From: Entamoeba histolytica HM-1:IMSS
Taxonomy: Eukaryota > Evosea > Mastigamoebida > Endamoebidae
Assembly (NCBI RefSeq): GCF_000208925.1
Contig: NW_001915032.1
Location: 7,380-35,140, forward strand
Length of the DNA: 27,761 nt
Reading direction: 5' to 3'
Shown one piece after another: positions 2,682 to 26,060 of this stretch. The position numbers were made by a program, and so were the translations under genes. The stretch's first letter is position 1. Each line of letters opens with the position of its first letter. The notes beneath the pieces were generated by a model. The model did no database searches and had not been told where the DNA came from. It saw nothing but the letters and a program-made list of their open reading frames with translations.

Positions 2682-2703
2682 TTTATTCTCTTTTGTTTTA
2701 TAT
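2682..2703. repeat. Left target-site duplication of SINE A
   Basis: A 22-bp pyrimidine-rich segment starting TTTATTCTC and ending GTTTTATAT is repeated without a mismatch at 3339-3360. It ends one base before the GATTCGAAG that opens the element. Confidence 0.9.
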
Positions 2704-2704
2704 A

Positions 2705-2796
2705 GATTCGAAGATGGCACGTCAGAGACACCACATGAAACCCTAAAATAATCCCATGCTTCGAATCTCCCAGTTATCGTCTAGTCATGACGTGCC
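2705..2796 (+). ncRNA. Candidate HDV-like double-pseudoknot at the 5' end of SINE A
   Basis: P1: GATTCGAAG (2705-2713) pairs with CTTCGAATC (2759-2767). P2: GGCACGTCA (2716-2724) pairs with TGACGTGCC (2788-2796). The two helices interleave, so this is a pseudoknot. A CATG/CATG hairpin (2733-2736 with 2755-2758) directly abuts the P1 3' strand, as P3 does in HDV ribozymes. CCAG/CTAG (2770-2773 with 2781-2784, one mismatch) stands at the P4 position. J4/2 would be UCAU, with C2786 as a possible catalytic cytosine. P3 is weak and is separated from P2 by about 9-10 nt, unlike known examples. Self-cleavage is inferred, not shown. Confidence 0.45.
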
Positions 2797-2880
2797 TTTG
2801 GTGAGATAATATCTATTCAACACTAACTGTTTATTATTATTAATATTTATTAGAAGTGAGTATTATAAAAGATTAATATT

Positions 2881-2920
2881 CATTAACGTGTATTGTTCTT
2901 CATTAACGTGTATTGTTCTT
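2881..2920 (+). repeat. 20-bp perfect tandem duplication inside SINE A
   Basis: The unit CATTAACGTGTATTGTTCTT occurs twice with no mismatch. The corresponding part of the inverted copy at 25027-25620 lacks the duplication, so repeat number varies between copies, as is known for Entamoeba SINEs. Confidence 0.85.
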
Positions 2921-3338
2921 CCTTATTAATTATAAAGATTATTATTTACTAAGGAGGTATTATGTATTAAGAATTATCATTTATTAAAGAAGACGCATAT
3001 ATAATTGATATTGTTGCACAAAAATTAAACATAATGATATTATCAAGGAATAGGGTTTCTTTAAGGGGTGTCGAAGGTAAAAGGAGATGAGCTATAACAG
3101 TATGTTATGGATATACTCTCCTTAAAACAACAATATAAAGAATGAGAAATATTATATTACTCATTAAAATCAAAATAAAAGTCAGGCAGCAACTTAATTG
3201 AGGAACCATTTAAGTCGAGCATGCTTGCAAAAACTTTATTTCAATAGAAATAAAGCGTGTTGAAGAAACTGATTCGCTCACTTCTCAACATGATGAAAAA
3301 CCTAAAAATAAGGTTAATCATAATTGATTTCTTTTTTT

Positions 3339-3360
3339 TTTATTCTCTTTTGTTTTATAT
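3339..3360. repeat. Right target-site duplication of SINE A
   Basis: Identical to 2682-2703 and located directly after the T-rich tail of the element, which places the 3' boundary of the insertion. Confidence 0.9.
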
Positions 3361-5249: not shown

Positions 5250-5394
5250 TATTTCATTCTTTATATTATTAATTAATATATTTCTTATTCAAATACATCA
5301 TCATAACCATCATAAACAAATAATAAATGATAATTCATTATTTGATTTTGTATTAATGTTTGTATTGTGTTTCAGACATGAAATATCCATTTCT
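5250..5394 (-). mobile_element. SINE E: degenerate 5' fragment, minus strand
   Basis: Read on the minus strand from about 5394, it contains GTCTGAAACAC, then TTATGATG and a GAATAAGAAATATATTA-like segment. These are in the order and spacing of the 5' module of the SINEs at 20174 and 24427. Similarity fades after about 150 nt, so the 3' limit is not defined. It is an old, eroded copy. Confidence 0.5.
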
Positions 5395-20154: not shown

Positions 20155-20173
20155 TTTAATATTACTATTCTTT
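20155..20173. repeat. Left target-site duplication of SINE B
   Basis: TTTAATATTACTATTCTTT (19 bp) recurs without mismatch at 20723-20741 and ends one base before GATCGAAG. Confidence 0.9.
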
Positions 20174-20174
20174 A

Positions 20175-20267
20175 GATCGAAGGTGGCACGTCTGAAACAC
20201 CACACATAAACCCTAGTACAAATTCATTCTTCGACTCTCCCAGTTATTATCTGGTTATGACGGTGCT
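20175..20267 (+). ncRNA. 5' pseudoknot module of SINE B (probably weakened)
   Basis: TCGAAG (20177-20182) can pair with CTTCGA (20229-20234), GGCACGTC (20185-20192) with GACGGTGCT (20259-20267, one bulge and one G-U), and CCAG (20240-20243) with CTGG (20251-20254) as a perfect P4-like hairpin. The layout equals that of SINE A. J4/2 reads UUAU, so the cytosine present in the other copies is absent here. Confidence 0.4.
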
Positions 20268-20370
20268 TTTGAATTAGGAATGTATTAGGGAATGCTGCAA
20301 AGGGTGTAGCAAGAGAATACAGTAGAATATTACATGGATGTAATATAAGAATCTACTGAAGTGTGGGTAT

Positions 20371-20423
20371 GACTAAAAGAAGATTAGTCAAAGTAAGACT
20401 AAAAAGAAGATTAGTCAAAGTAA
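20371..20423 (+). repeat. Two 26/27-bp tandem units in SINE B
   Basis: Units GACTAAAAGAAGATTAGTC... at 20371-20396 and 20397-20423 differ by one A. Each contains GACTAA and TTAGTC, which can pair as a small hairpin. Confidence 0.88.
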
Positions 20424-20642
20424 TACAGTAGTAATAAAATGATTCCTTCTTCCATTCATAAAATAAGAAAAATGAAATTCCTTAAAATTAAGGCAGAAAA
20501 CAAACAAAGGCTTAAAAAGAAGAAATAAGCAGAAGAAGTTTGAAAAACCTTAATAGGAAAAATAAAACAAAGAAGTGCTTTCCTCATTTTGCAAGAAAAA
20601 CCTAAATGATAGGTTAAACAAAGAGATTACTCTTTTTTAATA

Positions 20643-20674
20643 AGCTCAGGGATGGGATTAGTCTCCCCTGAGCT
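20643..20674 (+). other. 3' stem-loop of SINE B
   Basis: AGCTCAGG (20643-20650) pairs with CCTGAGCT (20667-20674) over 8 bp, enclosing GGGATTAGTCTCC. The LINE 3' end has the related GAGACGGGATTAGTCTCCCC. A conserved 3' hairpin is a likely recognition site for the reverse transcriptase. Confidence 0.65.
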
Positions 20675-20722
20675 AGGAAGAATAGATGAAAATTCTATTA
20701 ATACTTAATTAACTAATTTTTA

Positions 20723-20741
20723 TTTAATATTACTATTCTTT
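20723..20741. repeat. Right target-site duplication of SINE B
   Basis: Identical to 20155-20173. LINE-derived sequence begins immediately after it. Confidence 0.9.
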
Positions 20742-21753: not shown

Positions 21754-22823
21754 GTGATATTAAATAAAGATTATTGGAAAATAAAACAAATCACCTCGTG
21801 GAATGAAAGATATAGAAATTATGATAGTGTCATTATAACAATAAATGAATTAAATTTAAGTATAATGAGAATAAGTAACTGGAAAGCACCAGGAATAGAC
21901 ACTATATATGGGTATTATTTGAAAAGGATGTCATCATCAAGAGAATCCATTCTCAATATCTTCAATGAATGGTTGAACTTCATTCAAAACATCAAATTAG
22001 ACATGGTAAGTTGAAGAACTTTATTAATCCACAAATTGATAGGAACGACGTCATTAATTATCGTCCTATCAGTTGTACAAATGTAATTATGAAAGTATTT
22101 ACCTCCATATTAAAAGAAAAGATTCACAGAAGACTTAACATGAATTGTGAATCATTTAAAATTAATAATAACCAATTGGGATGTAAGTTGCAATCTTTAG
22201 CTGCTAAAGAAGGAATAATTAATAGTTATATGATGAAGCAGCAGAAAGAAGAAAAATACCCAAAATATGTGGAGTCATATTATGACATCAAGAAAGCATA
22301 TGACACAGTCAACCATGAATGTGTAATTGAATCATTAAAATATTTTAATGTAGAGGGTGTCATCATTGACATTATTGAAAGTATGATGACTAGGTGGAAG
22401 ATATTCATCGGTTATAAATTTAATAAATAAGTATGATGTATTAAATTAAATAGATGAATTTTACAAGGTGATTCATTATCAAATATACTCTTCATCATTC
22501 AGATGAATGTAATTTCTCAAATCATCGAAGAGAAATTCCCAAAATCAAATCACACATTATATATGGATGATTTGAGAATAATGACGGAAAGTAGTGAAGA
22601 AATGGGAATAATCCACAATGAAATTAAAGAATTAATAAGTGGAATAGGGATGGAAATGAATGAGAAAAAGTCAGGAATGGTATTAAAAAACATTAAGAAA
22701 ATACCAAATGGAATGCAAAACATCACCATAGTAGAATATGATGACTTGTATAAATACTTAGGAATATGGCAGTCCGACGAAATTGATGACACCTTCAATT
22801 GTAAATCCATCAAAGAAAAATGA
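21754..22823 (+). pseudogene. LINE reverse transcriptase region, broken
   Basis: Three frames carry the motifs in order: NWKAPGIDTI (21882 on), DVINYRPISCTNVIMKVF (22048 on), YYDIKKAYDTVNHE (motif A with the first catalytic Asp, about 22280), a QGDSLSN block at about 22466, LYMDDLRI (about 22560, the YMDD catalytic site) and GMEMNEKKS. All are diagnostic of non-LTR reverse transcriptases. Frame changes occur at about 22000 and 22430-22500. The catalytic aspartates are kept although the frame is lost, which suggests fairly recent inactivation. Confidence 0.85.
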
Positions 22824-23444: not shown

Positions 23445-24173
23445 ATGGAGCAATATTTTGTATGTACAAGAAAATCAAAAATAATGAAAAATGAAAGATT
23501 AAAATACTCAACACTTTGTAAAGACAAGATAGCTACAGTACAATACATTCTATTATCTTGTATTGGTCATAAAAAATCACAAATAGAAAAATATGACAAT
23601 GTTGGCATTATAATATGGGAGGGATTAATAAGAAAATACACAGGAAATAAACAATATAAAAAACCTCCATATGAAACAATGTTCCAATATAAAGACATCA
23701 CAATGATATGGAACAAACAAATAATGCCTAAAAGTGATGGACAATACCACAAAAGACCAGACATATACGTATTAGATAAAAAGAACAAAACTTGTTTATT
23801 ATTTGATATGACTATTGTGGCTGATCACAATATTAATGGAGCCTATTGGAAGAAAAGAAATATGTATAATGAATTAAAGAATAGGCTAATGAAAATAGAA
23901 AAATTAAAAGATGTCAAAATAATTCCAGTAGTAATCTCAATAAATGGATTAATAAATAAAGAAAGTATTAGATTAATTAAAGAATTAAAAATTGACATTG
24001 ACATCGAGAAAGAAGTAAAAAACCTTGTAATAAAAAACATGATGGATGTCATGGAATACTGCGGAGAACACAACCAAACATACTCTGTAGAGCTAATAGA
24101 AGAAGAAGACGAAGAGACGGGATTAGTCTCCCCTAAGCCAGGAATAATAGAAGCTATTTCTATTAATACTTAA
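23445..24173 (+). pseudogene. LINE restriction-like endonuclease region
   Basis: The last open frame (242 codons) contains a degenerate Cys/His segment (LCKDKIATVQYILLSC) and KRPDIYVLDKKNKTCLLFD. The latter has the PD-x(12-14)-D signature of the restriction-enzyme-like nuclease that nicks the target in R2/R4-type elements. FDMTIVADHNINGAYWKK follows. The frame ends GIIEAISINT at the LINE 3' end. It is cut off from the reverse transcriptase by stops between 22823 and 23445. Confidence 0.82.
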
Positions 24174-24426
24174 TTAATTGCTTTTTGATTATAGTTAAAT
24201 TATTTCTTTTTTATTTATTCAATTATTGATAAATTATTTAATTATTGTAATGAATATAACTAAGAATTTCATTTAAAATGAATATGGAATAAAATAAATG
24301 AAAATTAATGTTTTATTGACAAATAATAATATTTAAATCAACAAATAAATGGTTTCAATAAAATAAAAAGAAATGAATAAATAAATCTAAAATATCAGAT
24401 AAATAATATGAAATAAATAAAAAATT
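24174..24426. other. Spacer between LINE and SINE D
   Basis: A+T-rich spacer where the 3' ends of the LINE (+) and SINE D (-) face each other. No gene was seen. Confidence 0.5.
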
Positions 24427-25012
24427 AGTTAATTAAGTGTTAATAGAATTTTCATCCATTCTATCTGAATCAGTGGAGATTAATCCCATCGTTGAACTTA
24501 TTTTTAAAGAATAATCTCTTTTTTAACATATTCTTTAAGATTTTGTATGAGTATGAGAAAATCACTTCTTTCTTTTATTTCTTCCTATTAAAGTTTTCTC
24601 AAATTTCTTTCTGTTTTCTTTCTTCCTTTTAACTTTTAGTTTGATTTCTATTTTAATTTTAAATAATATCATTTTTCTTTATTTTAATTTAATTTATGAA
24701 AGAGAGAAGAAAGTATTTCATTCCCACTATACTATTATGATTAATTTTCTTTTATTCTTAACCACACTTTACTATATCATTTTCATTGATTAATACTTCC
24801 ATATTTATTTCTTAATTTCTTTATTAATAAATGTCATTTCTTATATTACAATATGTAATATTCAACCATAATAAATTGATGTACAATTTGCAATATTAAC
24901 TAATACATTTCATATTCAAAGATATCGTCATAACCAAATAATAACTTAGAGAGAGTTAAAACATAAATTATACTATGGTTTATGTTGTGTTTCAGATGTG
25001 ATACATTCAGTC
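24427..25012 (-). mobile_element. SINE D: diverged SINE1-like copy, minus strand
   Basis: Read on the minus strand it follows SINE B from end to end. The 5' end is GACTGAATGTATCACATCTG with GAAACAC. The middle has AAGTGTGGTTAAG. The 3' end has GATGGGATTAATCTCC and GAAAATTCTATTAACACTTA. It lacks the two clean tandem units of SINE B. The pairing segments of the 5' module are largely lost. No target duplication was found. It is an old copy. Confidence 0.78.
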
Positions 25013-25026
25013 CCAAGAAGAATAAC

Positions 25027-25620
25027 ATAAAAACAAATCAATTATGATTAACCTTCTTTTTAGGTTTTTCATCATGTTGAGAAGTAAGTGATCAGTTTCT
25101 TCAACATGCTTTATTTCTATTCAAATATTGTTTTTACAAGCATGCTCGACTTAAATGGTTCCTCGGTTAAGTTACTGCCTGACTTTTATTTTGATTTTAA
25201 TGAGTAATATAATATTTCTCATTCTTTATATAGTTGTTTTAAGGAGAGGATATCCATAATCTAATGATTATGACTCATCACCTTTATCTCCGACACCACT
25301 TAAAAAACACTATTCATTGATAATATCATTATATTCAAATGTACATACAACAGTAACAATAATATATGCATCTTCTTTAATAAATTATAATTCTTGATAA
25401 ATAATAAACCCTTAGTAAATAATAATCACTATAATTAATAATGAATAATATTATTACATAATAACTACTCATAATAAATATTAATAAATAATAACCAGTT
25501 CGTTTTGAATAGATATTATCTCATCAAAGACATGTCATGACCAGATGAAAACTGAGATATTCGAAGTATAGAAATATTTTATATTTTTATGTGATGTCTC
25601 TGACATGCCATCTTCGAATC
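25027..25620 (-). mobile_element. SINE C: second copy of the SINE A family, minus strand
   Basis: The reverse complement matches SINE A along its length: GATTCGAAGATGGCATGTCA at the 5' end, GAGATAATATCTATTCAA, the GTCAGGCAG block, GTCGAGCATGCTTG and the AACCT...AGGTTAATCATAATTG 3' end. The element is 594 bp. It lacks the 20-bp duplication of SINE A. No clear target duplication is visible, so it is older. It lies 5' to SINE D in the same orientation. Confidence 0.85.
25529..25620 (-). ncRNA. Candidate HDV-like pseudoknot at the 5' end of SINE C
   Basis: On the minus strand ATTCGAAG pairs with CTTCGAAT (P1). GGCATGTCA pairs with TGACATGTC (P2, one G-U). An AAATAT/ATATTT hairpin lies before P1' (P3). 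CAG/CTG (TCAG/CTGG with a U-G) lies after it (P4). J4/2 is UCAU. Relative to SINE A, a C-G pair in P2 has become U-A with both partners changed, and an inner P3 pair has gone from G-C to A-U. Confidence 0.45.
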
Positions 25621-26060
25621 CCTTATCTCAAGAATACCAACAAGAAAAGAAATAAATAACAAATAAATAAGAAAGAATGATTATTTGTTGTACTTTCAAA
25701 TAAATAAATATTAAATATTAATAAATTAATGAAATGAATAATAATGAGAATAATGTAATTTAAACAAAATGAAATAAAAAGAATGATAAATAATCAATGT
25801 TTCAATGAATAAAATAATATTTAACATTCTTATTTCATAAATTAATTATTTCATTTATTATTCATTCTATTTAAATTATGATTGTTTATTTAAAACATAA
25901 ACTATTATATTTTATAATAAACTATTCAAAATAAATTTAAATAAAAATTCATTTACTTTCTTTAAGTGTTTTTAAATTATTTCATCAAACATACAGTAGA
26001 AATACAACCATTATCTTTCTAATGATGTTCAATCATTATACATATTTATTATCTTTTTAA
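25621..26060. other. Gene-free A+T-rich stretch
   Basis: No open frame of interest, no recognised repeat family and no RNA gene was seen. Confidence 0.5.

Follow-up and report, generated by a model that had tools for sequence, protein, structure and literature searches.

A predicted 5'-terminal pseudoknot in the module common to EhSINE2 and EhSINE1 of Entamoeba histolytica

How the precise RNA 5' end of SINEs and LINEs without tRNA-like heads is made and kept is the question addressed here, as raised by a short element in a 27,761-nt stretch of the Entamoeba histolytica HM-1:IMSS genome (contig NW_001915032.1, positions 7,380 to 35,140), hereafter the window. According to the original prediction, the head of this element folds into a double pseudoknot resembling that of HDV-like ribozymes, and self-cleavage produces the 5' end of the SINE and perhaps of its LINE partners. 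No report of a ribozyme or a pseudoknot in Entamoeba SINEs was found among the open-licence papers listed, as judged by titles and the starts of abstracts.

The element, which starts at position 2704 of the window, carries two 20-bp repeats whose opposite strand resembles the EhSINE2 repeat motif described in a passage of PMC3716655, and on the basis of this resemblance it is taken as an EhSINE2 copy. A second copy, at 20174-20720, is EhSINE1_18, the coordinates in Table 2 of PMC2996970 (DS571317.1, 27553-28099) matching exactly; the pair that the paper gives for DS571347.1 (2150 and 7763) is likewise found to within 2 bases in the assembly. The third copy lies on the minus strand at about 25044-25621; it is an old EhSINE2 and belongs to a group of about ten that stem from a single insertion within a duplicated segment. 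Two decayed SINE1-type heads are also present (24920-25013 and 5307-5384, both on the minus strand), one of which directly adjoins the old EhSINE2 copy in the segment duplicated about ten times genome-wide. The EhSINE1 copy (20155-20741 including its 19-bp target duplication) is inserted within LINE1-like sequence, upstream of a reverse transcriptase match at 22053-22766. Its 3' tail contains a strong stem-loop (GCTCAGGG...CCCCTGAGC, 20642-20672, z -2.88), which may be what the LINE1 reverse transcriptase recognizes at the 3' end, and a related stretch is located at 24113-24191.

The features of the EhSINE2 head and of the related heads in the window are as follows.

2682..2703, plus strand: target-site duplication on the 5' side of the EhSINE2 copy, 22 bp, exact, partner at 3339-3360
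2704..2800, plus strand: 5' module common to EhSINE2 and EhSINE1, as delimited by their alignment
2704..2713, plus strand: P1 5' strand, AGATTCGAAG; A2704 is the first base of the element, the boundary being drawn from 55 copies with target duplications
2716..2724, plus strand: P2 5' strand, GGCACGTCA; its first bases fall within the A-box-like motif of EhSINE1
2734..2737, plus strand: possible P3 5' strand, CATG; weak, with one of four pairs kept here in EhSINE1 heads
2755..2758, plus strand: possible P3 3' strand, CATG
2759..2768, plus strand: P1 3' strand, CTTCGAATCT; within the B-box-like motif of EhSINE1, ncTTCGActCTCC
2770..2784, plus strand: P4 hairpin, CCAG...CTAG, with a C-A mismatch in the window copy
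2786..2786, plus strand: the C put forward as catalytic; T in 30 of 30 retrieved EhSINE1 heads
2788..2796, plus strand: P2 3' strand, TGACGTGCC
20174..20271, plus strand: module in the EhSINE1 copy; AGATCGAAG/CTTCGACTCT with a bulged C and GGCACGTC/GACGGTGC with a bulged G
25529..25621, minus strand: module in the old EhSINE2 copy; P1 25612-25621/25557-25566, P2 25601-25609/25529-25537

The architecture that had been described was largely borne out. The two perfect 9-bp helices interleave as proposed (2705-2713 with 2759-2767, and 2716-2724 with 2788-2796), J1/2 is the 2-nt AT at 2714-2715, a 4-bp P3 precedes the P1 3' strand, and the order of the helices is that of HDV. One further pair, A2704-T2768, extends P1 to 10 bp (2704-2713/2759-2768), P2 remaining at 9 bp. 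The P4 hairpin is present as a CCAG...CTGG type and all four of its pairs are formed in 24 of 30 chosen heads, but in the window copy the 3' arm reads CTAG (2781-2784) and one pair is lost to the mismatch.

When the stacking energy of every interleaved pair of perfect helices of at least 5 bp is taken as the score, the best pair in the EhSINE2 head reaches -36.6 kcal/mol, a value attained by none of 10,000 dinucleotide shuffles (best -30.5). The same value is reached by 11 of the 3,221 100-nt segments from the window and the retrieved loci, a set in which overlapping loci were not removed and most loci were selected for containing SINEs, and all 11 are SINE2 heads. The interleaved helices of EhSINE2 are real, and chance is excluded as their source. 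Nested folding alone is unremarkable (z -0.85 in a second EhSINE2 copy, L006, and -1.46 in the window copy). The nested optimum of the window copy is a longer P1 hairpin, in which the 10 bp are joined by AUGG/CCAU across a bulge and the first two bases of P2 are taken up, and such nested alternatives are predicted to be nearly as stable as the pseudoknot.

EhSINE2 and EhSINE1 begin with a single common 5' module of about 97 nt. In a pairwise alignment of the window copies, nucleotides 5-97 of EhSINE2 match nucleotides 4-98 of EhSINE1 with 79% identity (E 7e-18), and the next-best match between the two has an E of only 0.012, the bodies being otherwise different. Since the pseudoknot occupies nucleotides 1-93 of EhSINE2, with P2 ending at nucleotide 93 and good alignment at nucleotide 97, the common stretch and the fold share their limits. 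These matching limits are the most telling result for a role at the RNA level. Best kept between the families are the P1 3' strand, the P2 5' strand, J2/3 and the P4 region, while the P1 5' strand and the P2 3' strand each contain one indel.

The EhSINE1 version of the fold is weaker. The same two helices occur at the same positions, each with its one bulge, and if one bulge is allowed the best pseudoknot is the homologous one, equalled by 18 of 2,000 shuffles of the GTGCC form and by 67 of 2,000 of the GTGCT form. When bulges are disallowed it is unremarkable (101 and 584 of 1,500 shuffles, respectively, are as good). Old EhSINE1 copies pair poorly, with 4-6 of 10 pairs in P1 and 3-5 of 9 in P2. 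An apparently compensated P1 in one of them, L007, was set aside, as it needs a shifted register and a single decayed copy is no evidence.

Covariation of P1 and P2, on which the original prediction could be judged, gave a divided answer in an alignment of 30 heads chosen from 117 profile matches that include duplicates. In this alignment 79.8% of the cells pair, compared with 31-41% when slid. Pairs changed on both sides are not in excess (6 versus 6.0 in shuffles), nor are pair types (21 versus 22.5). The changed cells (24 versus 13.1) and the score (0.147 versus 0.126), on the other hand, lie above all 500 shuffles, an excess of a kind that relatedness can cause. Sixteen of the 24 changed cells come from P2 pair 17/94 and P3 pair 34/53, the changes of the latter being counted against an A-U reference, and both pairs mark copies of one duplicated insertion. 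For this reason, the two apparent compensatory changes of old EhSINE2 copies (C-G to T-A in P2, G-C to A-T in P3) were rejected as proof of structure; they are discounted further by being all transitions and by the retention of the ancestral pairs in L073. The flank is common to ten loci shown of the 11 examined, L073 sharing it only partly. As the bulged EhSINE1 helices are scored without bulges, the alignment counts against EhSINE1. With this reservation, the covariation data lean against a strong pairing constraint in the EhSINE1 lineage.

Where the element begins bears directly on the mode of formation of its 5' end. The 22-bp target duplication proposed for the window copy is exact (2682-2703 and 3339-3360), but for that very reason the element starts at A2704 and not at G2705; the element boundary thus lies one base 5' of the predicted cut rather than coinciding with it. 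Starts were surveyed in 55 copies with target duplications (26 EhSINE1 and 29 EhSINE2), after heads deviating from the strict pattern (e.g. L058 and L059) and those with a duplication score below 10 had been dropped. AGA is kept before TCGAAG in all 26 EhSINE1 copies and AGAT in 22 of the 29 EhSINE2 copies; the first base is therefore the A rather than the G that was predicted to follow the cut.

Extra nucleotides are found at the 5' junctions of 11 of the 26 EhSINE1 and seven of the 29 EhSINE2 copies (loci L001-L085), amounting to 39 nt in total. They are rich in G (18 of 39, versus 6.9% G in the duplications), and remain so when the doubtful junctions L037 and L052 are removed (14 of 28). 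An excess of G at 5' junctions is expected from the copying of a capped end, as in work on L1. The G-rich junctions would thus fit a copied transcription-start end better than a cleaved 5'-OH end.

It is highly improbable, in view of these starts and of the sequence of the head, that the SINE 5' end is cut out of a longer transcript by a divergent, self-cleaving ribozyme of the HDV-like type. There are likenesses: a 5'-terminal place, a P1 that begins on the first base of the element, a P2 interleaved with P1, a 2-nt J1/2, a hairpin at the P4 place and, in EhSINE2, a C-A before the P2 3' strand. The affiliations of the elements also speak for it, since the LINEs of Entamoeba have relatives in the R2 group (a passage of PMC2657916) and R4 and Dong elements carry HDV-like ribozymes (passages of PMC3774820). 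However, in the HDV-like ribozymes described in passages of PMC3774820, P1 is about 7 nt long and immediately follows critical L3/P3 sequences. The P1 of the SINE is 10 bp long, without the L3/P3/P1.1 sequence of the active site; the L3 between the CATG arms is without any G.

With the start of P1 limited to the first 3 nt, and in a search run without a positive control, a P1.1 of two G-C pairs came out in 0 of 212 arrangements in L006 and 0 of 203 in the window copy. Arrangements with one G-C pair numbered 60 in each, all with a 2-bp P3, and are the weak arrangements that may be set on the side of a ribozyme. In the EhSINE1 heads L036 and L031, again without a positive control, nothing fitted as long as the start of P1 was confined to the first 3 nt; a start anywhere in the first 6 nt gave 11 arrangements in each head, every one of them with a P3 of only 2 bp. 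None of the four heads, two of EhSINE2 and two of EhSINE1, combines a P3 of at least 3 bp with any G-C pair in P1.1, on a search likewise without a positive control.

The C at 2786, for which a catalytic part had been proposed, is the J4/2 base in 30 of 37 EhSINE2-type heads (six have T, and one, a LINE, is without the site) and in eight of ten heads with the flank of the duplicated segment, the other two being LINEs without the site. In contrast, all 30 retrieved EhSINE1 heads have T, a sample biased by being the best matches to a T-bearing query. The 13-letter site TCTGGTYATGACG occurs 140 times in the genome; among the 84 occurrences listed, 19 have C and 65 have T, and of the 19 with C, 17 are in known SINE2 copies and two are unassigned. 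A C-to-U change at the catalytic position abolished cleavage by a silkmoth R2 ribozyme, according to a passage of PMC3774820. In EhSINE1 the starts are no less exact than in EhSINE2, which suggests that a C in J4/2 is not needed for the 5' end. Comparison with the Rfam models pointed the same way. A cmscan of the window gave no match at the gathering threshold; for 2690-2840, with E up to 10, only two snoRNA matches (E 2 and 2.4) were obtained; and, with E allowed up to 10, neither RF00094 (9 of 9 candidates scored) nor RF01787 (56 of 429) matched anything in the assembly. With the start one base off the predicted cut, the active-site features missing and no HDV family matched, the claim of an HDV-like ribozyme making the SINE 5' end is not upheld.

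The extension of the ribozyme to the LINE partners did not hold either in the LINE 5' ends examined. Twenty of 40 listed matches (from 112 candidates) were retrieved and 19 were testable, L098 having no anchor and the LINE1 5' end not being included; in none of the 19 are the P1 and P2 3' strands present. Over about 130-330 nt downstream, the best matches to these strands have at least three mismatches in nine. LINE 5' ends share about 25-30 nt with the module, including the segment of the P2 5' strand, without the partner strands, and as carriers of the fold they were therefore rejected. It also follows that the LINE protein need not read the SINE fold. In four LINE copies (L091, L093, L094 and L098) the first 31 or so nucleotides are an EhSINE2-type head, and two others (L099 and L100) show, just 5' of the LINE 5' sequence, a stretch of about 14 nt from the head of an old EhSINE1; these six are likely products of template switching or recombination.

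A short 5' module common to different elements recalls Pr77 of the trypanosomatid L1Tc, NARTc and SIDER elements (passages of PMC4035085), which has also been counted in favour of a ribozyme. Pr77 is 77 nt long, compared with about 97 nt here, and a promoter function has been put forward for the same letters in both cases. Unlike the Entamoeba module, several Pr77 members are tested HDV-like ribozymes, and Pr77 is also found on the autonomous LINE, whereas the Entamoeba LINE copies seen carry only the 25-30 nt. Among SINEs, EhSINE3/EdSINE1 took its 5' end from SINE2 (a passage of PMC2657916), and an EhSINE2-type head is accordingly to be expected in this third family, which is abundant in E. 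dispar; no EhSINE3 head was found among the retrieved loci.

Two other explanations dispense with a role for the fold in the RNA. The module may be an internal promoter only, with its start at A2704 dictated by A-box-like and B-box-like motifs (the latter ncTTCGActCTCC) or by Pol II elements lying downstream, and with a complementarity that has no bearing on the RNA. This is rather unlikely. Such motifs, likened to the A and B boxes of Pol III promoters, were proposed for EhSINE1 by Huntley et al. 2010 (PMC2996970), in passages that place the A-box-like motif TcG--AAgGTGGC across the P1 5' strand and the first bases of P2. The motifs thus lie on the P1 and P2 strands, and the Promoters section of that paper contains no mention of the pairing. 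LINE 5' ends, moreover, share the segment of the P2 5' strand without its partners. TTTT is absent from the sense strand of the window EhSINE2 copy (2704-3323; 620 nt, 6.5 expected, P 0.002), which then ends in a long T run, and from that of L006 (595 nt, 7.6 expected, P 0.0005).

On the other side, a promoter leaves the perfect interleaved helices of 10 and 9 bp unexplained (none of the 10,000 shuffles), and the module extends about 30 nt beyond the B-box-like motif, to the end of P2. The boxes are called similar, not identical, by the authors themselves in PMC2996970; the motifs are imperfect, their spacing having been judged by eye against the consensus. In both heads ARAGORN finds no tRNA, and no tRNA family is among the Rfam matches of the window. 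TTTT occurs in the window EhSINE1 (six overlapping matches, P 0.88), which has internal runs of T4-T6, and in the old EhSINE2 copy (four, P 0.22). From this contrast, EhSINE1 and EhSINE2 may be transcribed differently. Less probable again, and indeed very unlikely, is that the pairing has no present role, being a relic or else a side effect of inverted sites at the DNA level. The helix cores TTCGAA and ACGT are both palindromic, EhSINE1 tolerates one bulge per helix, and EhSINE1 with its bulged helices was mobile recently (a passage of PMC2996970). A relic, however, would not account for the extent of pairing being that of the shared module.

Therefore, it appears best to regard the module as a pseudoknotted 5' end that does not cleave and that terminates the template for retrotransposition, with its start set by transcription from signals in the module, a model to which we assign a probability of roughly 0.5. 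The module RNA would fold into a pseudoknot beginning on the first base of the element. The RNA 5' end would be set by a transcription start from signals inside the module and not by self-cleavage. Transcription could be by Pol III, in view of the A/B-box-like motifs and of the lack of TTTT in the two EhSINE2 copies, or by Pol II, in view of the G-rich junctions and of the polyadenylation of SINE1 RNA reported in a passage of PMC2996970. The folded end might shield the RNA from 5' decay and provide a well-defined terminus for copying by the LINE reverse transcriptase, in line with what has been proposed for the HDV-like fold of R2 templates.

Work on R2 templates is the closest tested precedent for such a function. 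An HDV-like fold as 5' module raises the use of R2 templates, which the authors, in passages of PMC11331408, credit to structure and RNA stability, and passages of PMC12222951 also serve as precedent. In the same passages of PMC11331408 the mutant of the catalytic C is itself severely inhibitory, so that fold and catalysis are not cleanly separated there. Against a non-cleaving folded end stand the poor pairing of old EhSINE1 copies, the lack of an excess of pairs changed on both sides, and the LINEs without the 3' strands.

The possible origin of the non-cleaving end may be considered separately. The SINE heads may go back to an HDV-like ribozyme at the 5' end of elements in the LINE lineage related to R2, a ribozyme which lost its catalytic core and was kept as a pseudoknot capping the template, the loss corresponding to the C-to-T change in EhSINE1. 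Such a descent is unlikely on present evidence. If true, it would mean that a ribozyme fold was domesticated into a structural 5' end and traded between SINEs with unrelated bodies.

For the biology of these elements, the predicted fold offers a definite structural model for the 'A/B box' region of the SINE RNAs of E. histolytica, which are abundant and untranslated. If a pseudoknot module has outlived its putative catalytic residue, the structural and the catalytic part played by HDV-type folds in retrotransposition could be told apart, and EhSINE1 and EhSINE2 are a natural pair for separating fold from catalysis.
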